The notes below the pieces were generated by a model that saw only the letters and a list, made by a program, of their open reading frames with translations, did no database searches and was not told the DNA's origin. A program made the position numbers and the translations under genes. Below are positions 10,677 through 32,769 of a DNA stretch of 64,000 bases, one piece after another. Position 1 is the first letter of the stretch; each line of letters begins with the position of its first letter. Source of the stretch: Cellulophaga lytica DSM 7489 (GTDB taxonomy: Bacteria > Bacteroidota > Bacteroidia > Flavobacteriales > Flavobacteriaceae); NCBI RefSeq assembly GCF_000190595.1, contig NC_015167.1:1415501-1479500 (forward strand), in the 5' to 3' direction.

Positions 10677-10677
10677 A

Positions 10678-13649: not shown

Positions 13650-14405
13650 ATGGGTCTATTAATAACAGCAAACATTTCTACAACTGCATGGGTTTTGGCT
13701 TTTACAGCCGTATTTGTAATGGGTGTTTCTAAATCTGGTTTAAAAGGCATTTCTATAATTGTAGTTACACTTATGGCTTTGGCTTTTGGTTCTAAAGCAT
13801 CTACAGGTTTACTTGTACCATTGCTTGTTGTAGGCGACATTTTTGCTGTAATTTATTATAGGAAATATACCCAGTGGAAATACATTTTAAAGTTTTTACC
13901 CTGGATGATTAGCGGTATTTTAATAGGTGTATTTGTTGGTAAAGATTTACCAGAAGCTTCTTTTAAATACTGTATGGGTGGTATTATATTAATTACCGTT
14001 TTGATGATGCTTTGGTGGGATCAAAAAAAATCTAAAAATGTACCAACACATTGGGCATTTGCCGGCTCTATGGGTTTACTTGCTGGTATTACTACAATGA
14101 TTGGTAATTTGGCTGGCTCTTTTTCTAACATCTACTTTTTAGCAATGCGCTTGCCTAAAAATCAGTTTATAGGCACAGCTGCTTGGCTTTTTTTAATTAC
14201 CAATATTTTTAAGCTCCCTTTTCACATTTTTGTGTGGCATACCATTACAAAAGAATCTGTTCTTTTAAACCTAAAACTTTTACCTGCTATTTTTGTAGGC
14301 TTTATTGTTGGCACCATTCTAGTAAAGTACATTAAGGATAAATTTTTCAGAAAAATGATACTAATTCTTACAGCTATAGGTGCTTTGCTAATCTTGCTTA
14401 GATAA
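13650..14405 (+). CDS. TauE/SafE-family permease
   Basis: A 251-residue protein with about eight hydrophobic segments and the TauE/SafE signature (FVMGVSKSGLKG near the N-terminus, GGIILITVLMMLW centrally, and a second half with AGITTMIGNLAG). The family exports sulfite, sulfoacetate or other small anions; the substrate cannot be read from sequence. It is divergent from the symporter gene and lies 66 bases before the PUL regulator on the same strand. A link to sulfite or sulfate handling with the PUL sulfatase is possible but only inferred. Confidence 0.85.
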   Translation: MGLLITANISTTAWVLAFTAVFVMGVSKSGLKGISIIVVTLMALAFGSKASTGLLVPLLVVGDIFAVIYYRKYTQWKYILKFLPWMISGILIGVFVGKDLPEASFKYCMGGIILITVLMMLWWDQKKSKNVPTHWAFAGSMGLLAGITTMIGNLAGSFSNIYFLAMRLPKNQFIGTAAWLFLITNIFKLPFHIFVWHTITKESVLLNLKLLPAIFVGFIVGTILVKYIKDKFFRKMILILTAIGALLILLR

Positions 14406-14471: not shown

Positions 14472-17237
14472 ATGAAAAATTTAACCTCGCTTATTTTACT
14501 TTTCTTTATTAGTTGCTACGTTATTGTTGGACAAAATCTTTTTCCACCTATACACAACTATAAAATATTTGATTACAACGCTGCTAGTAAAAATTGGGGA
14601 TTAGCCACTAATAAAGATGGCGAATTATTTTCTGCCAATAATGCTGGTCTTTTACATTTTAATGGAGAAGAATGGAAACTTAACGCCTTACCTAGTAAAA
14701 CCACCATACGATCTGTTGCTGCTATAGATGATAAAATTTACACCGGTTCATATGAAGAATTTGGATTTTGGAAAAAAGATAGTCTAGGTGTTTTAAAATA
14801 CACATCATTAACACATCTTATAAAAAACCACGTATTTACTAGTGAAGAGTTTTGGCAAATTATACCTCATAACAATGCAATTGTTTTTAGGTCATTTTCT
14901 AAAGTATATGTGTACAAAAACAATAAAATAACGGTAGTTAAAGCAGATATTATTGTTAACAATATTACAAAACACAACAACCAAATTATAGTTGCAGGTG
15001 GTGATGATGGTTTGTTTTATTTAGAAGGTGACACCTTAGAACCTCTTGTCTTAAAAAACAACATTTCTTTTGTAAATAAAACTGTAGTAGATATGGTTTC
15101 TATTAAAGAAGGTTTGTTAATTGGCACCAAATTAAACGGTTGTTACTTAATTAAAAATAATGAAATTAATGTTTGGGGTAGCACTATTAACGACACATTA
15201 AAACAGCATCAGCTTAATAAAATTATGGTGTTAAATCAGCACAGCATTGCTTTTGGCACTATAAAAAACGGACTCTTTTTATACAACAATAACACAAAAA
15301 CCTATAAAAGCATTAATCGCGAAGTTGGACTACAAAACAACACCATTTTAGCTATGGTTGCTTTTAAAAATCAGCTTTGGTTAGGGTTAGACAATGGTAT
15401 AGACCACATTCAACTAGACCACCCAATTACATATTACACAGATTTTACTGGTGTTTTAGGTACTGTTTATGACATTGCTTTGTACAACAACAAAGTATAC
15501 TTAGGATCTAATACTGGTTTGTATTATGTAGATAATGATGTGCTACATTTTGTAAAAGGCACTCAGGGGCACGTTTGGGATATTGCAGTTGTAAACAATG
15601 AGCTCTTTTGTGGACATAATACAGGAACATTTAAGTTAAATAAAGATGGCTTGGTTAAGGTTTCTAATATTTCTGGAGGCTATCAAATAGAGAAAATACC
15701 TGAGGACAAATCATCCTTTTTACAGGGTACTTATACCGGAATAGCAAAATACAGTAAAGATGATATTAACCAATGGACTGTAGAACGATTAAAAGGCTTT
15801 AATTTACCAGTAAAAAAATTGTGTTTTGAAGACGCTAACACACTTTGGGTTGCTCACCCATATAAAGGTTTTTACAAACTAAAATTAAATAGCACCTATG
15901 ACTCTGTAATTAGCTCCAAAGAATATAACGGAAAAAATGCCCCTAATAAATACAATGTAAAACTCTACAATATTAAAAACCAAATTGTTTTTTACAGTCA
16001 GGGAGAGTGGTTTAAATACGATCCTATTTTAGACAAAATTGTAACGTTAGAGGAGTTTAGCTCATTTAAAAATAATGAGTTGTTGTATTATAATGATGAT
16101 CATTTTTGGTTTATTGACAATGAAAACAGTAAAAAAATTACTTATACCAATTTTAAGGAAGACAATATTATTATTGAAAACCAAAGTTTAAAAAAACGTA
16201 TAATACCTGAGGCAGAAAATATTATTAAGGTAAACGACTCTACATTTTATTTTACCCTTGTAGATGGTTACAGTCAAATAAACTTTAACAAGTTAAACAA
16301 TCAGTTAAAAGATAATAATAGGCTACCAACTCCTAAATTAGTGAGTTTTACTGGTAAACAAAACAGTTACCCAATACATACAAAAAACATAACACTGCCT
16401 TTTAAAGATGCTGGTAATATTAGTATTAAAATTGCTTCATCTGGCGTTATGCACCCAAAATATTACTATAGTTTAGATGGCAAAGATGCTCAATTTGCTA
16501 AATTAGATAATGGTTTTATATCGTTTCAAAACTTAAGTCACGGTAGTTACACTTTAGAGGTTTACGGTGTAGGTATTGACAATAAAAAATCTGTTCCAAA
16601 TGTCATTAACTTTACTATTAAAGCTCCTTGGTATTTGTCTGGCCCTGCACTTTTAATTTACTTTTTACTTGTAATAGCCGCCATAATACTTATTAGAAAA
16701 TACAACAAATACAAACTAAACCTTAAGCACAATAAGCTTAAAGAGCGTATGCAAAAAGAGCAAGATGAAAAAATTGCGCTTTTAGAGAAAGAAAAATTAG
16801 CAAAAGAAGTAAAGCTTAAACAAAAAGAATTAGCTAATACTACATTAAATATTGCTAAAAAGAATGAAATTATTTTAGACCTAAAAAACCTATTAACTCA
16901 AAACAAAGATAAATTTCCTAATCAGCAACGTTATAAATCTTTTATGAAAAGGTTAAACAATTCTGTTAACAACAAAGAAGACTGGAAACGATTTGAAATG
17001 AATTTTAAAGAATTGCATAGCGACTTTTTTGAGAATCTTTTAAAAGAATACCCAAAGCTTACTCCTAAAGATTTAAAACTATGTGCTTACCTTAAAATGA
17101 ACCTATCTACTAAGGAAATTGCACCGCTTATGGCTATTACGGTTAGGGGTGTAGAAATACATCGTTACCGTTTACGAAAAAAATTAAATATAGATAGCTC
17201 AGAGAACATATCTAACTTCTTAATCACCTTTAAATAA
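14472..17237 (+). CDS. membrane-anchored Y_Y_Y / HTH transcriptional regulator of the PUL
   Basis: A 921-residue one-component regulator. It has a signal peptide (1-21), a long periplasmic beta-propeller-like region (about 30-620), a Y_Y_Y-type Ig domain (about 640-720), a single membrane helix (about 724-743, GPALLIYFLLVIAAIILIRK), a cytoplasmic coiled coil (about 745-800), and a C-terminal LuxR-like helix-turn-helix (about 855-915, with LSTKEIAPLMAITVRGVEIH). There is no histidine kinase or receiver domain, so it differs from hybrid two-component systems and resembles SusR-type regulators. It lies directly upstream of susC and probably senses an oligosaccharide in the periplasm and activates the PUL. 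Confidence 0.88.
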   Translation: MKNLTSLILLFFISCYVIVGQNLFPPIHNYKIFDYNAASKNWGLATNKDGELFSANNAGLLHFNGEEWKLNALPSKTTIRSVAAIDDKIYTGSYEEFGFWKKDSLGVLKYTSLTHLIKNHVFTSEEFWQIIPHNNAIVFRSFSKVYVYKNNKITVVKADIIVNNITKHNNQIIVAGGDDGLFYLEGDTLEPLVLKNNISFVNKTVVDMVSIKEGLLIGTKLNGCYLIKNNEINVWGSTINDTLKQHQLNKIMVLNQHSIAFGTIKNGLFLYNNNTKTYKSINREVGLQNNTILAMVAFKNQLWLGLDNGIDHIQLDHPITYYTDFTGVLGTVYDIALYNNKVYLGSNTGLYYVDNDVLHFVKGTQGHVWDIAVVNNELFCGHNTGTFKLNKDGLVKVSNISGGYQIEKIPEDKSSFLQGTYTGIAKYSKDDINQWTVERLKGFNLPVKKLCFEDANTLWVAHPYKGFYKLKLNSTYDSVISSKEYNGKNAPNKYNVKLYNIKNQIVFYSQGEWFKYDPILDKIVTLEEFSSFKNNELLYYNDDHFWFIDNENSKKITYTNFKEDNIIIENQSLKKRIIPEAENIIKVNDSTFYFTLVDGYSQINFNKLNNQLKDNNRLPTPKLVSFTGKQNSYPIHTKNITLPFKDAGNISIKIASSGVMHPKYYYSLDGKDAQFAKLDNGFISFQNLSHGSYTLEVYGVGIDNKKSVPNVINFTIKAPWYLSGPALLIYFLLVIAAIILIRKYNKYKLNLKHNKLKERMQKEQDEKIALLEKEKLAKEVKLKQKELANTTLNIAKKNEIILDLKNLLTQNKDKFPNQQRYKSFMKRLNNSVNNKEDWKRFEMNFKELHSDFFENLLKEYPKLTPKDLKLCAYLKMNLSTKEIAPLMAITVRGVEIHRYRLRKKLNIDSSENISNFLITFK

Positions 17238-17290
17238 AGGTTTTTCTGTCATAAACAGCTTAACAATTACATAACACGCAGTACATCATT

Positions 17291-17390
17291 ACTACATCAA
17301 AGTGTTAAAAGTGTATAAAAAACTAGGTTACAATACTACTGCAAACCATACTATTGGCGGTGTGTAGCGTAATTTTTGTGTTGATGTAGT
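17291..17390. promoter_or_regulatory. distant inverted repeat in the susC upstream region
   Basis: ACTACATCAA (17291-17300) has an exact inverted copy TTGATGTAGT at 17381-17390. Both lie in the 232-base gap between the regulator and susC. They could be paired binding sites for the regulator at 14472; this is inference from position only. Confidence 0.4.
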
Positions 17391-17400
17391 TTTTATGTAG

Positions 17401-17418
17401 TTGCTAAAACCTTAGCAA
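17401..17418. promoter_or_regulatory. candidate operator palindrome upstream of susC
   Basis: TTGCTAA (17401-17407) and TTAGCAA (17412-17418) form a perfect 7-bp inverted repeat with a 4-base spacer, 51 bases before the susC ATG. The position suits a regulator site close to the promoter. No perfect TAnnTTTG is present here, which fits a promoter needing an activator. Confidence 0.45.
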
Positions 17419-17469
17419 ACAGCCTCTTTTATTAATTTAGTAAAAATCTAACTCAATTTTTAATGTATT

Positions 17470-20400
17470 ATGAAAATACTCAATCAAATATTATTAATCT
17501 GCTTTATTCTGTTCGGGATGTCTGCCTACGCCCAAGAGAATATAACGGTTAAAGGACAAGTAGTAGACAATAATGGCACACCTTTATTGGGTGCTAGTAT
17601 TATTATTAAGGGTACTACAACAGGAACACAAACAGATTTTGATGGTAACTACCAATTAAACAGCGTTCCAAACAACGGAACTTTAGTTATAAGTTACATT
17701 GGTTTTATCACATCAGAAATTGCTGTAAATAATTCCAATACAATTAATGTAACCTTAGAAGAAGATGCAGAGTCTTTAGATGAAGTTGTTGTAATTGGTT
17801 ACGGTGAAATGAAGTCTAAGGATTTAACCTCATCTATAACCACTGTTAAAGCCGAGGAATTAGCAGCTGTACCTACAGGTTCTGCTATGCAGGCTATGCA
17901 AGGTAAGGTTGCGGGTATGCAAGTAGTAAGTAGCGGTTCTCCTGGGCAAGGACCAACTATTAGAGTAAGGGGTATAGGGTCTTACAACACAGGTGCCTCT
18001 GCCCCTTTGTACGTTGTAGACGGTATGTTTTTTGACAATATAGATTTTTTAAATACAGCAGACATAACATCCATTTCTGTCTTAAAAGATGCTTCTGCAT
18101 CTGCAATTTATGGTGTTAGAGCTGCAAATGGTGTTGTTCTAATAGAAACAAAATCTGGAGCATTTAATAAAAAAGCAGAAATTACATATGATGGCTACTC
18201 TGGTTTTCAGGTAGCACAAAACGTTTTAAAAGTTGCTAACGCAGAACAATTTACAACCTTAGCGTTAGAATCTGGTTCTGCACCAGATGCAGACTATATT
18301 CTAAATGCTATGCAGCGTTATGGTCGTAGTAGAGTTAACCCAAATGTACCTAATGTTAATACAGATTGGTATGATGAAATTATAAGACCAGCTTTAATAC
18401 AAAACCATAGTATTGGTGTAACTGGTGGTAGTGAAGATGTTAGTTATTCTGTAGGGGCTAATTACTTTGGACAGCAAGGTATATTAGACACTAAAAATGA
18501 ATATGAGCGTTTTAACTTAAGAAGTAAAATAGAGTTTAATGCAAACGACTGGTTAAAAGTTGGTGCTAACACGGTAATTAGTAACGCTACTAGATATGAT
18601 GGTGATAACTCTGCTTGGCGTGCTGCTTATTTTGCTGTACCTATTTTACCTGTGTATGATGAGGCTTTAGCTAACGACCCAGATGTTTTCCCTACAAACT
18701 ATGCTAATGCACAAGATTTAGGCTATAGAGGTGGTCAAAACCCTTTTCCCCTTTTAGATTTTAATGAAAACAGAACAAAAATTAGAAATATACTTGCTAA
18801 TTTTTATGCAGAAATAGACTTAATACCTACTAAACTTAAGTTTAAAACTGCATACAACCACAACTACCAAACTCTAGAGTACAGAAGTGTTAATTTACCT
18901 TACTACATTGGCGATAGTTTTCAAAGACCAGATGCTTCATTAACAAAGAGTAACACAACAATATCAAATCAGATATGGGATAATACTTTAACTTATAAAG
19001 AATCTTTTGGTAATCATGATGTAACTGTCTTAGCTGGTACTTCGTTCAGAGATGAATCTTATCAGTTTTTAAGTGCAACAGGATTAAACTTTCCGTTGTC
19101 TGGTGAAGAAGCCTATTATTTAGACCAAGCACAGACTATTGTAGAAAATAGTGTTGGTGATGGTGGTGCAAGAGAATATGGTTTCTCATACTTTGGTAGA
19201 GTATCTTATAATTATGATGGTAAATACCTACTTTACGGAACCTTTAGAGCAGACGGAACTAACAAATACCAAGAAAAATGGGGTTATTTCCCTACAGTTG
19301 GTGCTGGTTGGGTTGTATCTGAAGAACCTTTTATGCAAAACAATGGTGTTTTTGATTTTCTTAAACTACGAGGTAGTTGGGGTAAATTAGGTAATGATAA
19401 TGTTGCTGGCAGTAACGGTTCTATTACTTCTTCTGTAGTTACAACTGCGTTAGGAGACACTATGTTTAGCGGTTTAAACACAGGTAGTGATTTTACTTCT
19501 TTAAAATGGGAGGTTACAGAGGAAACTAACATTGGTATAAATGCTAGTTTTTTAGCCAACAATTTATCTTTAGAGGCAGATTATTATGTTAGAGATACAA
19601 AAGACGCCGTTATCCCTGTACAAAGACCATTAATACCTGGTTCTACCAGACAAAACGTAGGAGAAATTAGAAACTCTGGTTTTGAAATGTCATTAAACTG
19701 GAGTAAAAAAGTATCAGATGATTTTAGTTATAACATTGGCGGTAATTTTTCTACACTTAAAAATGAAGTATTAAGTTTAGATGGTCAACAATATATAGAT
19801 GCTGGCTCAGCAGAATTTCGTCAACGTTCTATAGTTGGTGAACCTCTTTACGCTTTTTATGGTCGCGAGGTTGTTGGCATTTACCAAAATGAAGCAGAAA
19901 TACTTGCAGATCCTGTTGCTGTAGCTAATAACTTAGTCCCTGGCGATTTTAAATACAAAGAAAACGGTGGAGATCCTACTACTATTGATGATGATGACCG
20001 CGTAGTTTTAGGATCTTACTTACCAACATACTCATACGGATTTAACTTTGGGTTTAACTACAAAAATTTTGACTTCACGGCTACTGCTTCTGGTCAAGGT
20101 GGCAACAAAATACTTAACCGTAAAAGACTAGAAGTAATTTTTACTAGTGATACTAACTGGGACAGAGACTTTGCTGTTAATCGTTGGCACGGTGAGGGTA
20201 CTACAAACTCATACCCATCTGCAGCCGCAGTACGTAAAGGGTGGAACCAAAAATTAAACGATTACTACGTAGAAGATGGTGACTACTTTAGAATTCAGAA
20301 CATAACACTTGGGTACACAATTAATAAAAATGGAGAATTAAAAGGTATTCCTAAAACCCGTATTTACCTAACAGCAGAAAAACCATTAACCATATTTGGT

Positions 20401-20496
20401 TATAACGGGTTTAACCCTGAGGTTGCTAATGGTATAGATAACCAAACATATCCTATCCCTGCAGTTTATACAATGGGAGTTAACATTAAAATATAA
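17470..20496 (+). CDS. SusC/RagA-type TonB-linked outer-membrane transporter
   Basis: A 1008-residue SusC homologue that imports oligosaccharides across the outer membrane using TonB energy. Visible parts are a signal peptide (1-21), a carboxypeptidase-regulatory-like domain (about 24-100, VKGQVVDNNGTPLLGASI), a TonB-box-like DEVVVIGYG (about 105), the plug (about 115-220, RVRGIGSYN, PLYVVDGMFF, SVLKDASASAIYGVRAANGV), and a long beta-barrel. It is followed after 5 bases by the susD gene, so the two form the usual SusCD pair. Expression is likely controlled by the regulator just upstream. Confidence 0.97.
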   Translation: MKILNQILLICFILFGMSAYAQENITVKGQVVDNNGTPLLGASIIIKGTTTGTQTDFDGNYQLNSVPNNGTLVISYIGFITSEIAVNNSNTINVTLEEDAESLDEVVVIGYGEMKSKDLTSSITTVKAEELAAVPTGSAMQAMQGKVAGMQVVSSGSPGQGPTIRVRGIGSYNTGASAPLYVVDGMFFDNIDFLNTADITSISVLKDASASAIYGVRAANGVVLIETKSGAFNKKAEITYDGYSGFQVAQNVLKVANAEQFTTLALESGSAPDADYILNAMQRYGRSRVNPNVPNVNTDWYDEIIRPALIQNHSIGVTGGSEDVSYSVGANYFGQQGILDTKNEYERFNLRSKIEFNANDWLKVGANTVISNATRYDGDNSAWRAAYFAVPILPVYDEALANDPDVFPTNYANAQDLGYRGGQNPFPLLDFNENRTKIRNILANFYAEIDLIPTKLKFKTAYNHNYQTLEYRSVNLPYYIGDSFQRPDASLTKSNTTISNQIWDNTLTYKESFGNHDVTVLAGTSFRDESYQFLSATGLNFPLSGEEAYYLDQAQTIVENSVGDGGAREYGFSYFGRVSYNYDGKYLLYGTFRADGTNKYQEKWGYFPTVGAGWVVSEEPFMQNNGVFDFLKLRGSWGKLGNDNVAGSNGSITSSVVTTALGDTMFSGLNTGSDFTSLKWEVTEETNIGINASFLANNLSLEADYYVRDTKDAVIPVQRPLIPGSTRQNVGEIRNSGFEMSLNWSKKVSDDFSYNIGGNFSTLKNEVLSLDGQQYIDAGSAEFRQRSIVGEPLYAFYGREVVGIYQNEAEILADPVAVANNLVPGDFKYKENGGDPTTIDDDDRVVLGSYLPTYSYGFNFGFNYKNFDFTATASGQGGNKILNRKRLEVIFTSDTNWDRDFAVNRWHGEGTTNSYPSAAAVRKGWNQKLNDYYVEDGDYFRIQNITLGYTINKNGELKGIPKTRIYLTAEKPLTIFGYNGFNPEVANGIDNQTYPIPAVYTMGVNIKI

Positions 20497-20501
20497 GACT
20501 T

Positions 20502-22052
20502 ATGAAACTGTATAAAAAACATATATCACCTCTACTTATACTAGCATTTATTGCATCAGTATTTGTTGGGTGTTCAGACAAGTTAGATGAGCCACAGGAA
20601 AACAACAACTTTGCTGGTGGTACAGATTTTACAAAAACCGAGGATATGATATTGTCTATCATTGGTGTTTACGATGCTTTTCAATCTCGTGGATGGGAAC
20701 AACCTTTATTAATTTCTGTTCGTGGAGACGATGTTAATGCTGGTGGTTTAGGTGACCAACAAGATTTTGCTGAAACTGACCTTTTTAATTATAACAAAGA
20801 TTATTGGATGTACAATTCTCTTTGGGAAAACGTATATGTAGATGTTATTACAGCACATACAGCTATGGAACAAATAGCACGTTACCAGGAGTTTGCAGAT
20901 GCAGACGGTATTGATAAAGGAAACCAATACATTGCAGAAGCTAAAGTTTTAAGAGGAATGATGTTGTTTCAAATTTCTCAGGTTTGGGGAGATATTTTTA
21001 TTCCAGAATCTTCAGACACTGGCGCCCTTTTAAACGTTACAGAGTTACCTACTAAGGATGAGGTTATGCAACATATATCTAACCAGATGGATGAAGCAAT
21101 TTCATTTTTACCAGACGCAAGACCTAATGAGCGTATAGATATCCCTGGAGGGGTTACAAAATATACTGCTTTAGCTATAAAAGCATTGGCTAACCAAGAA
21201 CTTAAAAATTACCAAGAAGTTGCTGCTGCAACCGGACAAATAATTAACTCTGGTAAGTTTAGTTTATTTACAGATTATTATGAGCTTTTTAAAACTCCTG
21301 GTAAATTAAGTGATGAGAGTATTTTAGATTTACAATATTCAGATTTTGGACAAGGTGAAGGTGATAGAGAAGGACATTTGTTTGCTCCTTATGGCCCGCA
21401 AAACTGGACTCCGGCTGTTACTGGTGCTGCATCTGGCTGGGGTTTTTATGAGCCTAGCTTAAAATTTATAAAATTTATGTTAGACCGTGGAGAAGCTGTG
21501 CGTTTAGAAACTAGCGTACTATTTACAGATCGCGGTATTGCAGAGCTTCAAACAGATCCAAATTACGCTACTCTACCAAGTTTTGTAAAAAACACAACCA
21601 GAGATGGTGATGTTATAAACGACTATTCTAGAGCCCTATTTTCTAGTGGTAAACACTATTTGCCATCAAACCAATTAATAGAAGGCAGAACAGAATACGG
21701 TAGTAACAAAAACTACAATGTTATACGTTATGCAGAAATTTTATTAATGTATGCAGAAGCCATTACACAAGGAGCAACAGCAACATCTATAACTGCAGAT
21801 AATGCTGTAAACTTGGTAAGAGAAAGAGCTGGTATGCCATCTCTTACTGGTGTAACATTAGACAATGTAATAGATGAAAAATTTGCCGAACTGGGTATGG
21901 AATGGGGCAAGCGCTATTACGATATGGTTAGACTAGGCAGATTTAGCGAGCTAAACTATGACGGAAGAACATTTTCTGAAGACAAGGTTTACCTTCCTTA
22001 CCCACAACCACAGGTAGACCAATTTCCAATTTTAGGAAACTCATCAAACTAA
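20502..22052 (+). CDS. SusD/RagB-type surface glycan-binding lipoprotein
   Basis: A 516-residue SusD homologue: lipoprotein signal with the cysteine in FVGCSDKLDEP, then an alpha-helical TPR-like fold with typical segments (EAKVLRGMMLFQISQVWGD, YAEILLMYAEAI, and ERAGMP). It forms a lid on the SusC barrel and binds the glycan outside the cell. It starts 5 bases after susC and is followed by the LamG lipoprotein after 13 bases, so all are probably one transcript. Confidence 0.97.
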   Translation: MKLYKKHISPLLILAFIASVFVGCSDKLDEPQENNNFAGGTDFTKTEDMILSIIGVYDAFQSRGWEQPLLISVRGDDVNAGGLGDQQDFAETDLFNYNKDYWMYNSLWENVYVDVITAHTAMEQIARYQEFADADGIDKGNQYIAEAKVLRGMMLFQISQVWGDIFIPESSDTGALLNVTELPTKDEVMQHISNQMDEAISFLPDARPNERIDIPGGVTKYTALAIKALANQELKNYQEVAAATGQIINSGKFSLFTDYYELFKTPGKLSDESILDLQYSDFGQGEGDREGHLFAPYGPQNWTPAVTGAASGWGFYEPSLKFIKFMLDRGEAVRLETSVLFTDRGIAELQTDPNYATLPSFVKNTTRDGDVINDYSRALFSSGKHYLPSNQLIEGRTEYGSNKNYNVIRYAEILLMYAEAITQGATATSITADNAVNLVRERAGMPSLTGVTLDNVIDEKFAELGMEWGKRYYDMVRLGRFSELNYDGRTFSEDKVYLPYPQPQVDQFPILGNSSN

Positions 22053-22065
22053 AAAACTAAACGCT

Positions 22066-23790
22066 ATGAAAAATTTAAAATATACAATAACCTGTTTGGT
22101 TTCTGCATTATTTTTCTATTCTTGTGACCAAGGTATAGATAACATAACGCAAGTAGCTGCAGGTGCAGATGAAACTGCGCCAGAAGTTAAAATAAATTAT
22201 CCTACAGAAGGCACAAAAATTAAAGTACTAGACATTGTTACTTCTATTGTAATAGATTTTGAAGTTACTGATGATATAGAAGTTGCCTCTATAAATGTTG
22301 CCATAGATAATAATACAATACAATCTTTTACAAGTTTTAAAGACTATAGACGTGTTTTAATAGATGATTTAGTTTTTGATAATTTAGTTGATGGCACACA
22401 TAAACTAACAATTACCGCAACAGATTTAGAAGGTAAAACCACTGAAGCCTCTGTAAACTTTGAAAAAGAACCTGCCTATACACCATTGTTTGCCGGAGAA
22501 ACCTTATATATGCCTTTTGATGGTGATTATATAGATCTTATTGGCTTACAAGCAGCAACTAAAGTTGGTAACCCTAATTTTGCTGGAGAAAGTGTTGTTG
22601 GCACCAATGCATATGCAGGCGCTACAGATGCATATTTAGAATATCCTACAGACGGTTTAATTGGCGGTACAGAGTTTAGTGCTTCATTCTGGTACAAGGT
22701 AAATGCAACCCCAGACAGAGCTGGTATTTTAATTATTGGTGATGATGCAGAAGACCGTTTTCAAGGTATAAGATTATTTAGAGAAGGTAACGGCGCTGAG
22801 CAAAGAATAAAAGCTAATGTAGGGACAGGAGCAGGAGAAAGCTGGAATGATGGTGGCGTTATAAATGTTGCAGAACAAGAATGGATATATATTACACTTG
22901 CCGTTTCTGCTACCAAGAGTACTATCTTTTTTAATGGTGTTGCAGTAAATACTGCAGATTTGGCAGCACCTGTAGATTGGACAAATTGTAATACTGTTAC
23001 AATTGGTGCTGGTGGAGATACTTTTAGTTACTGGGACCATAAATCAGACAAGAGTGCTATTGATGAGCTACGTTTCTTTAACAAAGCACTTACTGATAGC
23101 GACATAGAAAATATGATAAACGTTACTAACCCTTATACAGGTGTTTATGATGGAGAAATGTTCTACGCTGCTTTTGATAACGACACAAAAAATAAATTTA
23201 CGGCTCAAGAGGCTACCGTAGTTGGTTCTCCAGGATTTGCAGATGAAAGTGTTATTGGTAGTAACGCCTTTGCAAGTACTACAGATTCTTATATAACTTA
23301 TCCTGCAAATAACTTATTAAGTGGCACAGAGTTTAGCGCAACATTCTGGTATAAAGTAAATGCAACCCCAGACAGAGCAGGAATTTTAGTTATTGGTGAT
23401 GATGCTGATGATCGTTTTCAAGGACTAAGGCTATTTAGAGAAGGTAGTGACACAGAACAAAGAATTAAAGCCAATATTGGTATCGGAACTAATGAAAGCT
23501 GGAATGATGGTGACATTATTAACGTTGCAGACCAAGAGTGGGTATTTGTAACCTTAGTTGTTTCTGCTACAAAAAGCACTATTTATTTTGATGGTGTTGC
23601 TGTTAATTCTGTAGACTTAGCTGCTCCTATAGACTGGACAGGTTGTGACCTTATAACAGTGGGTTCTGGTGGTGAAACATTTAGTTACTGGGATCATAAA
23701 TCAGATAACAGTGCTATAGACGAACTACGCCTATACAACAAAGCACTTTCACAACAAGAAATACAGTCTATTAGAGACGCAGATTTATAA
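22066..23790 (+). CDS. surface lipoprotein with Ig-like domain and two LamG repeats
   Basis: A 574-residue protein with a lipoprotein signal (cysteine in LFFYSCDQG). An N-terminal Ig-like domain (about 38-140) precedes two LamG/concanavalin-like domains (about 145-350 and 362-570). The two are closely similar: both contain FWYKVNATPDRAGIL and DTFSYWDHKSD or ETFSYWDHKSD, about 660 bases apart, so the gene has an internal duplication. In the SusE/F position after susD it is likely a surface glycan-binding protein that presents substrate to SusCD. No catalytic residues are evident. Confidence 0.85.
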   Translation: MKNLKYTITCLVSALFFYSCDQGIDNITQVAAGADETAPEVKINYPTEGTKIKVLDIVTSIVIDFEVTDDIEVASINVAIDNNTIQSFTSFKDYRRVLIDDLVFDNLVDGTHKLTITATDLEGKTTEASVNFEKEPAYTPLFAGETLYMPFDGDYIDLIGLQAATKVGNPNFAGESVVGTNAYAGATDAYLEYPTDGLIGGTEFSASFWYKVNATPDRAGILIIGDDAEDRFQGIRLFREGNGAEQRIKANVGTGAGESWNDGGVINVAEQEWIYITLAVSATKSTIFFNGVAVNTADLAAPVDWTNCNTVTIGAGGDTFSYWDHKSDKSAIDELRFFNKALTDSDIENMINVTNPYTGVYDGEMFYAAFDNDTKNKFTAQEATVVGSPGFADESVIGSNAFASTTDSYITYPANNLLSGTEFSATFWYKVNATPDRAGILVIGDDADDRFQGLRLFREGSDTEQRIKANIGIGTNESWNDGDIINVADQEWVFVTLVVSATKSTIYFDGVAVNSVDLAAPIDWTGCDLITVGSGGETFSYWDHKSDNSAIDELRLYNKALSQQEIQSIRDADL

Positions 23791-23825
23791 TAAATACATT
23801 TTTAGTTTTTAGTTAATTCATTTTT

Positions 23826-25163
23826 ATGAGATTATTTTTAGTAGTATTGGCTGTTGCATCCTTATTAACAGGATGCAACAACAAGCCAAAAAAAATTCAA
23901 AAACAAGTTTGGACAGATGAAGCTTTACTGGACTCTGTACAAAAACAAACGTTTAACTATTTCTGGGATGGCGCAGAGCCTGTTTCTGGACTAGCTAGAG
24001 AACGTATACATTTAGACAGTATTTACCCAACACACCATAAAGACATTATAACTATTGGCGGTTCAGGATTTGGACTAATGACCATTGTTGTTGGTGCAGA
24101 ACGTGGCTACATTACCAAAGAAGAAGCTTTATCTAGATTTGAAAAATCTGTAGATTTCTTAGAAAAAGCAGATCGTTTTCATGGTGCATGGCCACATTGG
24201 TTAATGCCTAGTGGCAAAGTTGCTCCCTTTAGTCAGTATGATGATGGTGGAGATTTAGTAGAAACTGCCTTTTTAATTCAGGGTTTATTAACTGTAAAAG
24301 AATACTATGCAAATGGCGGTGAACGTGAACAAAAACTAGTTGCTAAAATTCAGAAACTTTGGGAAGAAGTAGAGTGGGATTGGTACACAAAAGGAGAAAA
24401 CACCTTATACTGGCATTGGTCTCCTAATGTAGCCTGGAAAATGAATTTCCCTGTTGGTGGTTACAATGAAGCATTAATAATGTACATATTAGCTGCTGCA
24501 TCACCAACACACCCTGTATCTAAAGAGGTTTATGATAAAGGTTGGGCTCTAAATGGGCAAATTGCAAAAGACACTGTTTATTATGGTTTAGAAACAGAGC
24601 TTAATCATTATGAGCATGATGCATCTCCTGTTGGTCCGTTATTTTGGGCACATTATTCATACTTAGGTTTAAACCCTAAAGGATTAACAGATGCCTATGC
24701 AGACTATTGGAAACTAAATGTTAATCACGCTAAAATACACTACAGACACGCCGTAGAAAATCCAAATAAGTATAAGGGTTATGGCAAAAACTTATGGGGG
24801 TTAACATCTAGCTATTCTGTAAAAGGCTATGCTGGCCACAGACCAGATAACGACTTAGGTGTAATATCACCAACAGCAGCATTATCTTCTATGCCATATA
24901 CACCAAAAGAAAGTATGCAGTTTTTACGCTATATGTATACAGAGCAAGATTCGCTTGTTGGTAAGTATGGCCCTTATGATGCTTTCAGCTTAGAAAACAA
25001 CTGGTCTTTACCTCGTTATTTGGCCATAGACCAAGGTCCAATTCCTGTAATGATAGAAAACTATAGAACAGGTTTATTATGGAATTTATTTATGAAAAAC
25101 AAAGACTTACATAAGGGGTTAGAAAAACTAGGTTTCTCTACAACGCACAAAAATGACAATTAA
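23826..25163 (+). CDS. GH144-like glucanase lipoprotein (glucoamylase-type domain)
   Basis: A 445-residue lipoprotein (cysteine in LLTGCNNK) whose body matches the glucoamylase-like Pfam family that includes glycoside hydrolase family 144. Landmarks are QTFNYFWDGAEPVSGLARER, GGSGFGLMTIVVG, DDGGDLVETAFLIQGLL, WDWYTKGENTLYWHWSP, and AIDQGPIPVMIENYRTGLLW near the end. Characterised GH144 members cleave beta-1,2-glucan, either internally or releasing sophorose from an end. Its 3' end overlaps the next gene, a paralogue, by 11 bases, so the pair is translationally coupled. Probably surface or periplasmic. Confidence 0.88.
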   Translation: MRLFLVVLAVASLLTGCNNKPKKIQKQVWTDEALLDSVQKQTFNYFWDGAEPVSGLARERIHLDSIYPTHHKDIITIGGSGFGLMTIVVGAERGYITKEEALSRFEKSVDFLEKADRFHGAWPHWLMPSGKVAPFSQYDDGGDLVETAFLIQGLLTVKEYYANGGEREQKLVAKIQKLWEEVEWDWYTKGENTLYWHWSPNVAWKMNFPVGGYNEALIMYILAAASPTHPVSKEVYDKGWALNGQIAKDTVYYGLETELNHYEHDASPVGPLFWAHYSYLGLNPKGLTDAYADYWKLNVNHAKIHYRHAVENPNKYKGYGKNLWGLTSSYSVKGYAGHRPDNDLGVISPTAALSSMPYTPKESMQFLRYMYTEQDSLVGKYGPYDAFSLENNWSLPRYLAIDQGPIPVMIENYRTGLLWNLFMKNKDLHKGLEKLGFSTTHKNDN

Positions 25164-26535
25164 AAATAGTCTTTTTACAACATTACTTATACTTGTAATT
25201 ATCTCGTGCAAAAGCGGAGATGATTACGAGTATACTCCAATTGAATTTCCTACTGATGACGATCCAATTTCTACACCTACAATAACTGATGAGGAGCTGC
25301 TAGATATTACACAGGCTGAAACCTTTAAATATTTTTGGGATTTTGCTGAGGTAAATTCTGGCGCAGCAAGAGAGCGCTACCATCCTAACGACCCAAGTAA
25401 TAGTGAATACACAGTTACAACAGGTGGTACAGGTTTTGGTATTATGGCACTTATTGTGGGTATAGAAAGGGGTTTTATTACCAAGGAAGAAGGTATAGAT
25501 CGTTTTTCCAAAATTCTAGATTTTTTAGAAAAATCAGATCGTTTTCACGGTGCTTGGCCACATTGGATTAATGGAGAAACTGCTAAGGTTATGCCTTTTA
25601 GCGACTTAGACAACGGCGGAGACTTGGTAGAAACTGCCTTTTTATCTCAAGGTTTAATTTGTTTAAAGGAGTATTTAAAAAATGGCTCTGATAAAGAAAA
25701 AGCTATAGCAGCAAAAGCAGATGAGCTTTGGAAAGGTGTGCAATGGGATTGGTATACAAACAATGAAAATACACTATACTGGCATTGGAGCCCTAACAAC
25801 AATTTTGCAATAAACCTAGAGCTAAAAGGGTATAATGAAGTATTAATTGCTTATGTATTAGCTGCTGCTTCACCCAATTATTCAATTTCTAAAGAGGTAT
25901 ATACAAACGGTTGGGCATCTAACGGTTCAATTGCATCTACTAACACAAAGTATGGGTTTCCTATATTGGCTAAACACGCTGGCAACCAAGAATATGGCGG
26001 GCCTTTATTTTGGGCTCATTACTCCTACTTGGGCCTAAACCCTAAAGGATTATCAGACGAGTATTTAAATTACTGGAACGTAAACACTAATCACGCTAAA
26101 ATAAATTACAGCTATAGTGTAGAAAATCCAAAGCAATTTAAAGATTATGGAAAAGATTGTTGGGGTTTAACAGCCAGTTATACAAGAAATTCAGACGGTA
26201 CAATTGGGTATAATGCTCATAGTCCGTCTAATGATACTGGAGTCATCTCGCCAACAGCAGCAATTAGTTCTTTACCGTATACACCAACAGAATCTATGCT
26301 GGCATTGCATTATTTCTACAAAAATAAAGATAAGTTGTTAGGCCCTGCTGGGTTTTATGATGCGTTTAGTCCGGAATATAATTATTGGGTTGCAGAACAG
26401 TATTTAGCTATAGACCAAGGACCTATTTTACTTATGATAGAGAATTACAGAACCGGACTTCTATGGGACTTATTTATGCAAAATACCGATGTAAAAAATG
26501 GTTTAGACAAGTTAGAATTTAGCTATACAGAATAA
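25153..26535 (+). CDS. second GH144-like glucanase lipoprotein
   Basis: A 460-residue paralogue of the preceding gene, overlapping it by 11 bases. The lipoprotein cysteine is in LVIISCKSG. It conserves QAETFKYFWDFAEVNSGAAR, GGTGFGIMALIVG, DNGGDLVETAFLSQGL, WDWYTNNENTLYWHWSP and AIDQGPILLMIENYRTGLLW. The order of motifs equals that of the first copy, which shows tandem duplication and divergence. A division of labour, one endo- and one exo-acting on beta-1,2-glucan, is plausible because both modes are known in GH144, but sequence alone does not tell which is which. Confidence 0.88.
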   Translation: MTIKNSLFTTLLILVIISCKSGDDYEYTPIEFPTDDDPISTPTITDEELLDITQAETFKYFWDFAEVNSGAARERYHPNDPSNSEYTVTTGGTGFGIMALIVGIERGFITKEEGIDRFSKILDFLEKSDRFHGAWPHWINGETAKVMPFSDLDNGGDLVETAFLSQGLICLKEYLKNGSDKEKAIAAKADELWKGVQWDWYTNNENTLYWHWSPNNNFAINLELKGYNEVLIAYVLAAASPNYSISKEVYTNGWASNGSIASTNTKYGFPILAKHAGNQEYGGPLFWAHYSYLGLNPKGLSDEYLNYWNVNTNHAKINYSYSVENPKQFKDYGKDCWGLTASYTRNSDGTIGYNAHSPSNDTGVISPTAAISSLPYTPTESMLALHYFYKNKDKLLGPAGFYDAFSPEYNYWVAEQYLAIDQGPILLMIENYRTGLLWDLFMQNTDVKNGLDKLEFSYTE

Positions 26536-26592
26536 AAAACATCAATCTAAAAGATAAAAAATACCCACCACGGGAAATAAAAATTACAGCAT

Positions 26593-28857
26593 ATGAAAAA
26601 AACAAACCTACTACTAATACTCACATTTTGCAGCACCTTTTTGGCTATTGGGCAAACAAAAGTTCCTTTTATAGAAGACTTGCTTGCTAAAATGACTATA
26701 GAGGAAAAAATTGGACAACTAAACTTGGTAACACCTGGCGGAGGTATTGCTACAGGTTCTGTTGTAAGTAGTAACGTTGAAGAAAAAATTAAAGCCGCCA
26801 AAGTTGGTGGTATGTTTGGTATATCTGGACCAAAAAAACTAAAAATAGCACAAGACTTTGCGGTAAATGATACACGTTTAAAAATTCCGTTATTCTTTGG
26901 TTCTGATGTAATACATGGGTACAAAACAACTTTTCCTATTCCGCTTGCAACAGCATCTAGTTGGGATATGGATTTGATTAAAAAAATGGCAGAGACCGCT
27001 GCATTAGAAGCAACTGCAGATGGTATAAACTGGAACTTTTCTCCTATGGTAGATGTGGCGCGTGATCCTCGTTGGGGTAGAATTGCTGAAGGTGCTGGTG
27101 AAGATCCGTATTTAGGTTCTGCAATAGCAAAAGCAATGGTGCACGGCTACCAAGGAAACAATTTAACTGCTAAAAATACAATGTTAGCCACGGTAAAACA
27201 TTTTGCACTTTATGGTGCTGCAGAGGCTGGTAGAGACTACAACTCTGTGGATATGAGCAGAACAAAAATGTTTAACCAATACTTACCTCCTTATAAAGCT
27301 GGTATAGATGCCGGTGCAGCAAGTATAATGACTTCTTTTAATGATGTAGATGGCATACCTGCAAGCGGTAACAAATGGTTACTTACAGACTTATTACGCA
27401 AAAAATGGGGGTTTAAAGGTTTTGTGGTTTCAGATTACACTTCTGTAAACGAAATGATTGCTCACGGGCTTGGAGATTTACAAGATGTATCTGCATTATC
27501 TTTAAAAGCTGGTTTAGATATGGATATGGTTGGCGAGGGTTTTTTAACTACACTTAAAAAATCTTTAGATGAAGGCCGTGTTACAGAAGAAGAAATTACC
27601 AATGCTTGTAGAAGAATTTTAGAAGCTAAGTATAAACTTGGCCTTTTTGATGATCCGTACAAGTATATTGATGCAAAAAGACCTAAAAAAGACATTTTAA
27701 CCAAAAAGAGTAAAACATTAGCAAGGGAGGCTGCTAAACGCTCTTTTGTACTTTTTAAAAACCATAATAACATACTACCACTAAGTAAAACAGCTAAAAT
27801 TGCGTTAGTGGGGCCTTTAGCAAATAACAAAAATAATATGCTGGGTACTTGGGCACCAACAGGAGACCCGCAATTGTCTATTCCTATTTTAAACGGATTT
27901 AAAAACGTTGCTTCTAAAGCCAAAATAACATATGCTAAAGGTGCAAATATTACAGATGATACTGAGTTAGCTAAAAAAGTAAATGTTTTTGGAACACGTG
28001 TAGATATTGACAAAAGGTCATCTGAAGAACTTTTGCAAGAAGCATTAGACCTTGCTAAAACATCAGACGTTGTTGTTGCCGTTGTTGGTGAAGCATCAGA
28101 AATGAGTGGTGAAGCTGCAAGTAGAACAGATATTTCTATTCCTAATAGTCAAAAAAGATTAATACAAGAACTTGTTAAAACAGGCAAACCGGTTGTTTTA
28201 GTATTAATGAGCGGTAGACCGTTAACTATTGAAGAAGAATTTAATCTTCCTGTTAGTATTCTTCAAGTTTGGCACCCTGGTATAGAAGCAGGTAATGCCG
28301 TTGCTGATGTTATTTTTGGTGATTATAATCCGTCTGGTAAACTAACAGCTACATGGCCAAGAAACGTTGGACAAATTCCTATTTACCATAGTATAAAAAA
28401 TACAGGTAGACCAGCTCCTTCTCCTGCTTTTGAAAAATTTAAAAGCAATTATTTAGATGTTAAAAATGCGCCTTTATTGCCTTTTGGTTACGGACTTAGT
28501 TATACCAGTTTTAAGTATTCTAACATCAACCTATCTAAAAAAGAAATTGCTCAAGGAGAAGACGTAACAGTATCTGTTACAGTAAAAAACACTGGTAATT
28601 TTGATGGTGAAGAAGTTGTGCAATTGTACTTAAGAGATGTTGTACGTAGCATTACACCTCCAATGAGACAATTAAAAGGATTTAAAAAAGTATTCTTAAA
28701 AAAAGGAGAGTCTAAAACTGTAGAATTGGTACTTACTGCAGACGATTTAAAGTTTTACAATAGTACTTTAGATTTTGTTGCTGAACCAGGAGATTTTGAA
28801 ATATTTGTAGGGACAAATTCTAACGCCCAATTAAAGGCTACTTTAACCCTAAAATAA
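26593..28857 (+). CDS. GH3 family beta-glucosidase
   Basis: A 754-residue GH3 enzyme with signal peptide (1-20), a TIM-barrel domain (about 25-370, with the nucleophile Asp in GFVVSDYTSVNEM), an alpha/beta sandwich domain (about 390-610, with HPGIEAGNAVADVIFGDYNP), and a C-terminal fibronectin-III-like domain (about 645-750). It removes glucose from oligosaccharides in the periplasm. Next to two GH144-like enzymes it probably acts on sophorose and longer beta-1,2-glucooligosaccharides; a GH3 enzyme with that activity is known from a Bacteroides beta-1,2-glucan locus. It is separated by 57 bases from the GH144 pair. Confidence 0.95.
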   Translation: MKKTNLLLILTFCSTFLAIGQTKVPFIEDLLAKMTIEEKIGQLNLVTPGGGIATGSVVSSNVEEKIKAAKVGGMFGISGPKKLKIAQDFAVNDTRLKIPLFFGSDVIHGYKTTFPIPLATASSWDMDLIKKMAETAALEATADGINWNFSPMVDVARDPRWGRIAEGAGEDPYLGSAIAKAMVHGYQGNNLTAKNTMLATVKHFALYGAAEAGRDYNSVDMSRTKMFNQYLPPYKAGIDAGAASIMTSFNDVDGIPASGNKWLLTDLLRKKWGFKGFVVSDYTSVNEMIAHGLGDLQDVSALSLKAGLDMDMVGEGFLTTLKKSLDEGRVTEEEITNACRRILEAKYKLGLFDDPYKYIDAKRPKKDILTKKSKTLAREAAKRSFVLFKNHNNILPLSKTAKIALVGPLANNKNNMLGTWAPTGDPQLSIPILNGFKNVASKAKITYAKGANITDDTELAKKVNVFGTRVDIDKRSSEELLQEALDLAKTSDVVVAVVGEASEMSGEAASRTDISIPNSQKRLIQELVKTGKPVVLVLMSGRPLTIEEEFNLPVSILQVWHPGIEAGNAVADVIFGDYNPSGKLTATWPRNVGQIPIYHSIKNTGRPAPSPAFEKFKSNYLDVKNAPLLPFGYGLSYTSFKYSNINLSKKEIAQGEDVTVSVTVKNTGNFDGEEVVQLYLRDVVRSITPPMRQLKGFKKVFLKKGESKTVELVLTADDLKFYNSTLDFVAEPGDFEIFVGTNSNAQLKATLTLK

Positions 28858-28866
28858 AAGATACAA

Positions 28867-29796
28867 ATGCCTAATTATTTAACTTTTTTACAACGTGCTA
28901 CTTTTTTAATATTAATTGTACTTACAACTACTATTGGTTATGCACAAACAAGGTATACGCAAAAAGTGTTTTCAGACATTAAGGTGAAAACCTATAGCTA
29001 TGCAGATACTTTAAAGTTAGATTTTTATAGCTACAAAAAAGATACAGTTACAAACAAACCTTTACTAATTTTAGTTCACGGAGGCGGTTTCAGTGGGGGA
29101 AAACGCAACAATCCGTTAGAAATAAAATTTTGTGAAGATATGGCAAAAAGAGGCTACGCTGTAGCCTCTATGAGCTATAGATTGGTGCGCAAAGGCAACT
29201 CACTTGGTTTTGGATGTAATTGTCCGGCAGATCAAAAAATAGAAACATTTGTATCTGTATCTAGAGATATTATTAAAGCAACACAGTTTTTAATTGATAA
29301 GAAAGGTAAATTAAAATTTAATCCAGAAAGCATAATACTTGTTGGTAGTAGCGCTGGCGCAGAAGCTGTTTTAAACACAGTATTTATGAAGAATGAATAC
29401 ACCTTTAAAAAGTTGCCTTATGCTACTATTAAATACGCAGGAGTTATCTCTTTTGCAGGTGCTATAGTTAATGCAAATTACATTACTAAAAATACAGCTA
29501 TACCAACAATGCTTTTTCACGGAGCTAAAGATAATATGGTGCCATACGCAACTGCACCTCATCATTTATGTGAAGAAAATAAACCTGGTTTTATTATGCT
29601 AGATGGCTCTTATACTATTGCAGAAAAATTAGAAAAATTAGATGTTGCACACACACTTGTAAGTGACAAAGATGGCAACCATAACTGGGCTAACATCCCC
29701 TATAGTTACACCAACCTTATTGCCAAGTTTATTACAGAAAGTGTTTTAGAAAAACAAAATATACAAAGCACAATTAAAGTAAAGCACAAAAATTAA
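28867..29796 (+). CDS. secreted alpha/beta-hydrolase, probable carbohydrate esterase
   Basis: A 309-residue protein with a signal peptide (about 1-26). The oxyanion-hole motif HGGGFSGGKRNN (about 71), nucleophile elbow GSSAGAEA (about 160), Asp in HGAKDNMVP, and a late His in DGNHNW give a complete catalytic triad. This fits the BD-FAE-like carboxylesterase group. In this PUL it may remove acyl groups (acetyl, succinyl or similar) from the glycan before the glycosidases act; that substrate is inference. It starts 9 bases after the GH3 gene and is followed after 2 bases by the sulfatase. Confidence 0.85.
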   Translation: MPNYLTFLQRATFLILIVLTTTIGYAQTRYTQKVFSDIKVKTYSYADTLKLDFYSYKKDTVTNKPLLILVHGGGFSGGKRNNPLEIKFCEDMAKRGYAVASMSYRLVRKGNSLGFGCNCPADQKIETFVSVSRDIIKATQFLIDKKGKLKFNPESIILVGSSAGAEAVLNTVFMKNEYTFKKLPYATIKYAGVISFAGAIVNANYITKNTAIPTMLFHGAKDNMVPYATAPHHLCEENKPGFIMLDGSYTIAEKLEKLDVAHTLVSDKDGNHNWANIPYSYTNLIAKFITESVLEKQNIQSTIKVKHKN

Positions 29797-29798
29797 TT

Positions 29799-31436
29799 AT
29801 GTTTAAAAAGGAGTTTTATATTGTAGTTTTATTAGTATTTGCTATTGGTTGCAAACAAAAGAAATCTCCAGAAAAGCAAACAAAAAAAAGACCTAATATT
29901 ATTTATATTATGTCTGATGATCATGCAGTACAAGCCATTAGTGCATACAACCACCCTATTAGTAAATTGGCACCAACGCCAAATATTGATAAAATAGCTA
30001 CAGAAGGCGCAATTTTTAATGGTAGTTATGTTACCAATTCTATTTGTGGGCCAAGCAGAGCCGTAATATTAACCGGTAAACACAGCCATATAAATGGATT
30101 TAGGCAAAACGGAGATCATTTTGATGGAAACCAAGAAACATTGCCGAAAATTTTAAAAAAAGAAGGATACCAGACAGCCCTAATGGGCAAATGGCATTTA
30201 CATGATTACCCACAAGGTTTTGACGATTGGAAAATTCTTGTAGATCAAGGTAATTATTACAATCCAGATTTTATAATTAATGGTGATACAACCCGTGTTC
30301 AAGGCTATGCTACAGACTTAATTACTGCAGATGCCATAAATTGGTTAAAAAATAAAAGAAAAGATAGTGTTCCGTTTTTTTTAATGGTACAACATAAAGC
30401 TCCGCATAGAAATTGGATGCCAGCCTTACGCCATTTAAATAAATACGATTCTGTTTCTTTCACTTTACCTACTTCTTATTTTCCAGAGTTTAATAATCAA
30501 AAAGCTAGCAGAGCTCAATTACAAACCATTTATAATGATATGTATGAAGGGCACGACTTAAAACTATCTACTGGTATTAATAAAACCAAGCTTGCACATA
30601 ACCCTTGGACCACTGATTTTGATAGAATGACAGAGACTCAGAGAGCTACTTGGGACAGCGCTTATTTAGCAAAAAACAACGCTTTTTATGAGGCAGATTT
30701 AAGTAATGAAGAAATAGCAATTTGGAAAGGTCAAAGGTACTTACAAGATTATATGGCAACCATAGCAGCTGTAGATGAAGGTGTGGGTGAAATTTTAAAC
30801 TATTTAAAGACGAACAATTTAGATGAAAATACTATTGTAGTATACACTTCTGATCAGGGTTTTTATATGGGTGAAAATGGTTGGTTTGATAAGCGTTTTA
30901 TGTATGAAGACTCTTTTAGAACACCTTTACTTATAAAATATCCCAAAGCCATACAACCAGGTACGCAAATTAATGCTTTAGTACAAAATTTAGATTATGC
31001 ACCAACAATTTTAGACTTTGTTGGCATACCTAATAAAGCAAAAGATATGCAAGGAGTATCATTTAAGGGCTTATTAAATGGTTCTGTTAACGAGAGTGAT
31101 TTTAGAGACGCTATTTATTATCACTATTACGACTATCCTGCTTTTCATATGGTAAAAAAGCATTACGGTATTAGAACAAAGCGCTATAAGCTTATTCATT
31201 TTTATGATGATATAGATAGTTGGGAATTTTACGATTTAGAAACAGACCCTAAAGAGCAAAACAACCAAATAAATAATGCAGCGTATACCAAAGAAATTAA
31301 GTTAATGCATACAAAGCTTAAACAGCTTCAAAAAGAATATAAAATAACTAATAAAGAGTTTACAAAAGCCAAAAAAGAAGACGTAGACAAGGCATACAAG
31401 CAATTTAAAAAGTTAAGAGGAACACCCATAAATTAA
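29799..31436 (+). CDS. S1-family sulfatase lipoprotein
   Basis: A 545-residue sulfatase with a lipoprotein signal (cysteine in VFAIGCKQKK). The formylglycine motif is complete: CGPSRAVILTGKH (about residue 79) in the CxPSR form, modified by a maturase encoded elsewhere. Metal ligands are visible in IMSDDHAVQAI and near SDQGFYMGENGWFDKR. The C-terminal DUF4976-like tail (about 440-530, YHYYDYPAFHMVKKHYGIRT, DLETDPKEQNN) is typical of glycan sulfatases. It closes the PUL operon, so its substrate is probably a sulfated or otherwise esterified form of the same polysaccharide. Confidence 0.92.
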   Translation: MFKKEFYIVVLLVFAIGCKQKKSPEKQTKKRPNIIYIMSDDHAVQAISAYNHPISKLAPTPNIDKIATEGAIFNGSYVTNSICGPSRAVILTGKHSHINGFRQNGDHFDGNQETLPKILKKEGYQTALMGKWHLHDYPQGFDDWKILVDQGNYYNPDFIINGDTTRVQGYATDLITADAINWLKNKRKDSVPFFLMVQHKAPHRNWMPALRHLNKYDSVSFTLPTSYFPEFNNQKASRAQLQTIYNDMYEGHDLKLSTGINKTKLAHNPWTTDFDRMTETQRATWDSAYLAKNNAFYEADLSNEEIAIWKGQRYLQDYMATIAAVDEGVGEILNYLKTNNLDENTIVVYTSDQGFYMGENGWFDKRFMYEDSFRTPLLIKYPKAIQPGTQINALVQNLDYAPTILDFVGIPNKAKDMQGVSFKGLLNGSVNESDFRDAIYYHYYDYPAFHMVKKHYGIRTKRYKLIHFYDDIDSWEFYDLETDPKEQNNQINNAAYTKEIKLMHTKLKQLQKEYKITNKEFTKAKKEDVDKAYKQFKKLRGTPIN

Positions 31437-31462
31437 AAAGTCGGTGCATACACACCGACTTT
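31437..31462 (+). terminator. terminator after the PUL
   Basis: AAAGTCGGTG (31437-31446) pairs perfectly with CACCGACTTT (31453-31462) around a 6-base loop. It lies 1 base after the sulfatase stop and about 100 bases from the end of the convergent symporter gene. The T-run is short (TTT, then AAACTG). Confidence 0.7.
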
Positions 31463-31565
31463 AAACTGACTTAAATTAGATTAATAAAAGAACAATTAAT
31501 CTAGCGCAAATGTTACTGTTTTTAAAGTCTTAAATGTTAATTTAATATCAATGTTGCATTAACAA

Positions 31566-32741: not shown

Positions 32742-32769
32742 AGCCTAGTTTTTATGTTTGTAAAAAACA

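Follow-up and report, generated by a model that had tools for sequence, protein, structure and literature searches.

A sulfatase-bearing GH144 locus of Cellulophaga lytica DSM 7489 with a sulfated beta-1,2-glucan as its probable target

Polysaccharide utilization loci (PULs) of marine Bacteroidetes that join GH144 genes to an added sulfatase gene have been described, with an unknown sulfated marine polysaccharide proposed as their substrate (Lapebie et al., 2019; PMC6499787), and a gene cluster of Maribacter dokdonensis 62-1 holds GH3, two GH144, susCD and sulfatase genes (PMC8072126). Here, we describe a nine-gene PUL of Cellulophaga lytica DSM 7489 that belongs to this type, at positions 14472-31436 of a 64,000-nucleotide stretch of the genome (NC_015167.1, positions 1,415,501 to 1,479,500; the whole stretch is called the window, and its numbering is used throughout). 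An earlier note on the window had proposed a substituted beta-1,2-glucan as the substrate and had known of no described beta-1,2-glucan PUL with a sulfatase; on the latter point it was wrong, as the two passages cited above describe such loci. Like the loci of Lapebie et al. (2019), the window locus unites GH144 and sulfatase genes in one SusC/D locus; the passage describing those loci names neither the subfamily of the sulfatase nor the position of the sulfate, and mentions no exceptions (PMC6499787). The core gene set is also the same as in M. dokdonensis 62-1, for which the corresponding passage gives no esterase and no sulfatase subfamily (PMC8072126). To these descriptions we add an assignment of the sulfatase to S1_11 and a predicted position for the sulfate, O6 of a terminal glucose. 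We further add six residues typical of the clade, members of the clade from beyond Flavobacteriaceae, exceptions to the linkage, and 9s03, a relative of solved structure but no assigned function.

Judged from its sequence, the locus probably serves a beta-1,2-glucan with a 6-O-sulfate, and probably also an ester group, on its glucose. A sulfated beta-1,2-glucan is favoured because both GH144 proteins keep the residues expected of them, because the sulfatase co-occurs with GH144 in 43 of 43 genomes, and because it falls in one clade that is free of paralogues and has residues of its own. It is favoured, too, because at least two GH144 genes, a LamG protein and one SusD type accompany the sulfatase, and because two congeners lack this gene alone at the corresponding joint. 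Co-occurrence, a separate clade and the association with a locus type likewise uphold the earlier view that the sulfatase belongs to the GH144 system.

Locus layout and the GH144 pair

The open reading frame (ORF) list and Pfam/NCBIfam searches confirm the nine closely spaced, one-strand genes that had been claimed:

14472..17237, + strand: regulator with Y_Y_Y and GerE (LuxR-type) domains (Pfam)
17470..20496, + strand: SusC-type TonB-dependent transporter (TIGR04056, 828 bits)
20502..22052, + strand: SusD-type lipoprotein (Pfam)
22066..23790, + strand: LamG lipoprotein with Big_7 and two Laminin_G_3 stretches (Pfam; lipoprotein signal by eye), a probable surface glycan-binding protein
23826..25163, + strand: GH144 homologue A (PF10091, 264 bits; lipoprotein-like signal by eye)
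25153..26535, + strand: GH144 homologue B (PF10091, 263 bits; lipoprotein-like signal followed by acidic residues, by eye)
26593..28857, + strand: GH3 beta-glucosidase, BglX-like (NF011678, 915 bits against a cut-off of 666)
28867..29796, + strand: alpha/beta-hydrolase, BD-FAE family esterase (PF20434, 75 bits against a cut-off of 26.8)
29799..31436, + strand: S1_11-like sulfatase (Sulfatase and SGSH_C domains; lipoprotein-like signal by eye)
31437..31462, listed by the scan on the - strand only: terminator-like hairpin of 11 pairs, directly 3' of the sulfatase stop

Intergenic gaps are 2-57 bases, except for 232 bases upstream of susC, and the two GH144 genes share 11 bases. The locus has the SusC/SusD pair, co-directional glycan enzymes and regulator of a PUL, and the recurrence of comparable gene sets across many genomes shows that the cluster is not a product of chance. 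The one terminator of the earlier note is present as a hairpin but was listed on the opposite strand; from its position, it may serve both sides and thereby also end the PUL operon. Relatives of the GH3 protein in the PDB are 3u48, 5tf0, 9urf and 5xxl.

The assignment of both enzymes to GH144 was borne out. Their PF10091 domains are full-length, and the best match of each, or one within 0.2 bits of the best, is 5gzh, the endo-beta-1,2-glucanase CpSGL of Chitinophaga pinensis, to which homologue A is 60% and homologue B 57% identical. All seven CpSGL residues that were checked (D135, D139, E142, E211, F268, Y330 and D400) are kept in both proteins, at D139, D143, E146, E215, F273, Y335 and D402 in homologue A. 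In CpSGL, mutation of D135, D139, E142 or E211 drastically lowers activity, while D400 is dispensable (PMC12102758). A beta-1,2-glucan backbone, as first proposed, appears the likeliest target of the pair. Within the genome, a single contig of 3.77 Mb, PF10091 matches only these two genes (E 0.001); synthesis of a cyclic glucan by the organism itself is unsupported, no search for synthase families having been made.

The sulfatase and its clade

The sulfatase is S1_11-like, as assigned by its nearest relatives in sequence and fold. A formylglycine motif, C83-G-P-S-R87, lies within its Sulfatase domain, and the genome has five matches to PF03781 (sulfatase maturation), a family too broad to prove a formylglycine enzyme. 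The nearest characterised relatives, by sequence as well as by a predicted model (pLDDT 87.4), are the S1_11 enzymes BT4656 (5g2v) and BT3177 (7p24), each with a Foldseek TMq of 0.84 and with identities of 48% and 47%; the leading relatives by sequence or fold are 9s03, BT4656, BT3177, an Akkermansia sulfatase and BuS1_11. The closest PDB sequence overall is 9s03, named only 'Putative sulfatase', which shares 99.8% identity over 544 residues with a Mariniflexile fucanivorans protein (10001-11644 of locus L046; L and G numbers are our handles for loci and genomes). In L046, two GH144 genes, a GH3 gene and an esterase gene stand beside the 9s03-type sulfatase gene, whose product falls in the same clade as the window sulfatase. 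The PDB record of 9s03 reads SGPSR, as in an inactivated variant, whereas the window reads CGPSR. Among the papers listed for M. fucanivorans and sulfatases, no title was recognised as work on 9s03.

Among the matches listed, 80 named loci were kept, 32 of which contain GH144. A tree of 91 sulfatases, built by a quick method, placed 39 of 40 GH144-linked rows and five unlinked rows on one side (support 90), and 43 unlinked rows together with both GlcNAc-6-sulfatases, BT4656 and BT3177, on the other. The sulfatase-like gene of L137, with an end branch of 8.1 and 33-37% identity to 9s03, BT4656 and BT3177, was excluded from the clade. A second tree, of 112 sulfatases without L137, gave a clade of 46 rows (support 96) that holds all 39 GH144-linked rows; its remaining members are the unlinked L034, L038, L055, L056 and L061 and unlinked copies from G160 and G636. 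Both GlcNAc-6-sulfatases and all 20 S1_11 paralogues (one from each of 15 GH144-lacking genomes and five from the window's genus; a second, weaker paralogue of G019 was not included) fall outside this clade. Such paralogues, at 44-53% identity, were present in 15 of 60 genomes searched among the 222 family genomes without PF10091, and the other genomes searched gave nothing at E 1e-120, with at most 22 candidates scored per genome. The clade itself includes rows at 52-56% identity.

The linkage of GH144 and sulfatase recurs outside Flavobacteriaceae, in Flammeovirga and in three clade members, Candidatus Margulisbacteria (L062), Proteiniphilum (L060) and Sphingobacterium arenae (L064). We take the records of these last three to be non-marine, unlike the marine PULs described before, and the clade, going by presumed habitats, probably occurs beyond the sea as well. 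The window organism itself is likely marine, to judge from its marine kin among the named loci.

In a comparison of 44 clade members with 43 outsiders, again without L137, the two groups have 106 nearly invariant positions in common, among them H203, D364 and R366, and K131, H133, D352, Q353 and K365 are invariant in clade and outsiders. S1_11 enzymes recognise O3 and O4 through a His/Asp/Arg triad (PMC10154612), to which H203, D364 and R366 likely correspond. For six other residues, Y245, Y249, E250, W270, F274 and F449, conservation is 95-100% within the clade and below 20% outside it; the set is complete in both unlinked copies (G160 and G636) and in none of the 20 paralogues. BT4656 and BT3177 have the fold, the catalytic motif and H203, D364 and R366 in common with the window sulfatase but differ at the six clade-specific positions. 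These residues suggest one common substrate unlike N-acetylglucosamine 6-sulfate (GlcNAc-6S) and, taken with the beta-1,2-glucan enzymes of the locus, point to an O6-sulfated terminal glucose.

Co-occurrence, locus types and congeners

In the window's genus, GH144 is present in 13 of 18 genomes and sulfatase orthologues (at least 69% identity) in eight, all eight on the GH144 contig and within 9 kb. In the family sample of 299 genomes, 75 carry GH144 (above cut-off) and 43 the sulfatase (E 1e-200 or better). All 43 also carry GH144, on the same contig and 0.9-18.2 kb apart in 42; in the one exception, the draft genome G032, the sulfatase lies on a different contig. The hypergeometric value for this co-occurrence, 8e-32, assumes independent genomes, an assumption that does not hold here; neither it nor the Fisher values are corrected for kinship. 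Five further GH144 loci hold clade sulfatases below the 1e-200 cut (partial matches), giving 48 of 75. The phylum sample gave sulfatase matches in 13 of 395 genomes at 1e-165, and the plasmid records 25 matches at E 1e-100, all below 60% identity. One sulfatase match, G018:C13:697766-699391, has one in-frame TGA.

Gene contents were contrasted between 46 sulfatase-positive and 27 sulfatase-negative GH144 loci, some of the latter cut by contig ends; a first contrast covered 41 of the 43 sulfatase-positive family genomes, G032 included, and G313 and G213 were examined afterwards. The contrast of the 46 and 27 loci indicates that the sulfatase goes with a locus type: at least two GH144 genes are found in 43/46 positive versus 8/27 negative loci, the LamG protein cluster in 35/46 versus 6/27, and the window's SusD type in 31/46 versus 6/27. 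The acyl group that had been proposed stands less firmly than the sulfate, the evidence for it being alpha/beta-hydrolase (esterase) genes of any kind, in 37/46 versus 12/27 loci. There was no clear difference for Abhydrolase_2-type esterases alone (31/46 versus 12/27, p 0.08), SusC (39/46 versus 18/27) or the regulator (14/46 versus 13/27).

Two congeners, G004 (locus L140) and G012 (L142), match the window at 83-84% DNA identity on both sides of the sulfatase gene, G004 over 28510-29808 and again over 31436-31566, and G012 over 28514-29797 and again over 31426-34009. Only the sulfatase gene is missing at that joint, a difference that would fit gain as well as loss. The two loci otherwise differ from that of the window in a shorter LamG protein (367 residues) in both and one additional esterase gene in L142. 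Three more GH144-bearing congeners (G001, G009 and G016) are without the sulfatase; in G001 and G009, where the joint was compared, there was no match downstream of the GH3 gene. A TauE-type gene at 13650-14405 was excluded from the PUL, the same cluster standing upstream in the sulfatase-free L140 and L142.

Candidate substrate and alternatives

From the families, catalytic residues, gene linkage and co-occurrence, all of them read from sequence, we infer a substrate linkage, a sulfate at O6, an ester, protein locations and an order of steps. The SusD-type and LamG lipoproteins would bind the glycan at the surface, one GH144 lipoprotein would cut the chain, SusC would import the oligosaccharides, and the second GH144 would shorten them. 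The sulfatase would remove the O6 sulfate from the terminal non-reducing glucose, thereby lifting a block on the exo-acting GH3, the esterase would strip acyl groups, and GH3 would release glucose. More tentatively, and with somewhat less than even probability, the GH144-linked S1_11 clade might have an undescribed specificity, that of a D-glucose-6-O-sulfate exo-sulfatase, and mark a real 6-O-sulfated (and esterified) beta-1,2-glucan on which Bacteroidota and Margulisbacteria would feed, both in the sea and elsewhere.

Several observations weigh against a sulfated beta-1,2-glucan. The clade sulfatase was not detected in 27 of the 75 GH144 family genomes, so GH144 loci can do without it, and a literature search, mostly at the level of listings and largely without subscription papers, found no sulfated beta-1,2-glucan. 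The S1_11 enzymes in a review passage act on GlcNAc-6S, its N-sulfated counterpart GlcNS-6S or L-galactose 6-sulfate (L-Gal-6S) (PMC10154612). Some clade members stand apart from GH144: G160 has a second clade sulfatase (L185, 9123-10829) in another SusD-type locus with GDPD, GH16, GH31 and GH92 genes, where its target is possibly another 6-sulfated glucan; that of G636 has no recognised PUL-type neighbour; and L061 (Stakelama flava) is without GH144 for 10 kb on either side, a real exception so far. In L186 and L187, the sulfatase lies past a divergent regulator, with other genes between. As for the other unlinked members, L034, L055 and L056 are near contig ends and L038 is perhaps cut by the 10 kb flank. 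Of the phylum-sample matches outside the family, G347, G468 and G589 (51-53% identity) have no GH144 in the 20 kb examined, G576 (55%) has it, and G593 is at a contig end. The gene adjoining the regulator in L186 and L187 is more than 99% identical to its homologue in L183.

The existence of unlinked clade members would also fit a sulfatase that keeps the usual S1_11 activity on GlcNAc-6S, works on a different glycan and stands next to GH144 through a linkage of convenience, as would the closest characterised kin, BT4656 and BT3177, with their identical H203, D364 and R366. We consider this quite improbable, given that the linkage recurs outside Flavobacteriaceae, that the clade-specific residues differ from both GlcNAc enzymes, and that hexosaminidase families have no match among the nine genes except a weak general GH3 model. 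The earlier note had named a sulfatase subfamily with an unrelated substrate as a danger to its proposal, which came true by half: the substrates most often associated with S1_11 are GlcNAc-6S and L-Gal-6S, but the GH144-linked clade stands apart from the characterised GlcNAc-6S enzymes. Many relatives, for their part, seem to process a glycan of greater complexity than that of the window PUL, since GH43 (25/46 versus 6/27), GH2 (11/46 versus 1/27), GH97 (7/46 versus 0/27) and EEP or metallophosphoesterase genes (20/46 versus 4/27) are commoner in sulfatase-positive loci. The natural food might then be a branched heteroglycan that bears sulfate, esters and other sugars and in which beta-1,2-glucan is only one component; this is unlikely, as the window PUL holds only GH144 and GH3 besides the esterase and sulfatase, and the locus contrasts ignore kinship and include the truncated negative loci.

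The cyclic periplasmic glucans of other bacteria, which had been named as possible substrates, are a still different case, and nothing observed points to them. Osmoregulated periplasmic glucans (OPGs) carry succinate, phosphoglycerol and phosphoethanolamine (PMC11842490), and EEP, metallophosphoesterase and GDPD genes occur in related loci, so that phosphoglycerol or a similar charged group on a periplasmic or cyclic beta-1,2-glucan could be imagined as the target of the S1 enzyme. This is very improbable in view of the C-G-P-S-R motif, the invariant K131, H133, D352, Q353 and K365 and the S1_11 fold, and the only phosphodiesterase-family match within the PUL is that of the sulfatase itself to PF01663, which lies below the cut-off.

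A sulfated beta-1,2-glucan, our preferred reading, would mark a gap in the picture of aquatic carbon cycling: many flavobacteria seem to have the genes to feed on such a glycan, and our literature search found no report of its isolation. Nor did the search find enzyme work on this sulfatase. With its GH144 pair, a sulfatase clade with residues of its own, the 9s03 structure and gene-absence controls within the genus, the locus can serve as a tool at the bench for examining both the substrate and where its sulfate sits.

Phosphodiesterase-type genes (GDPD, metallophosphoesterase and EEP) were seen within GH144 loci at L052:7204-7986, L060:5137-6138, L062:2208-3179 and L044:13768-14607. Downstream of the PUL in the window, a metallophosphoesterase-family gene (32847-33947, - strand) lies beside a dicarboxylate symporter gene, and a sulfate permease family gene is found 20 kb downstream, at 51028-53238.

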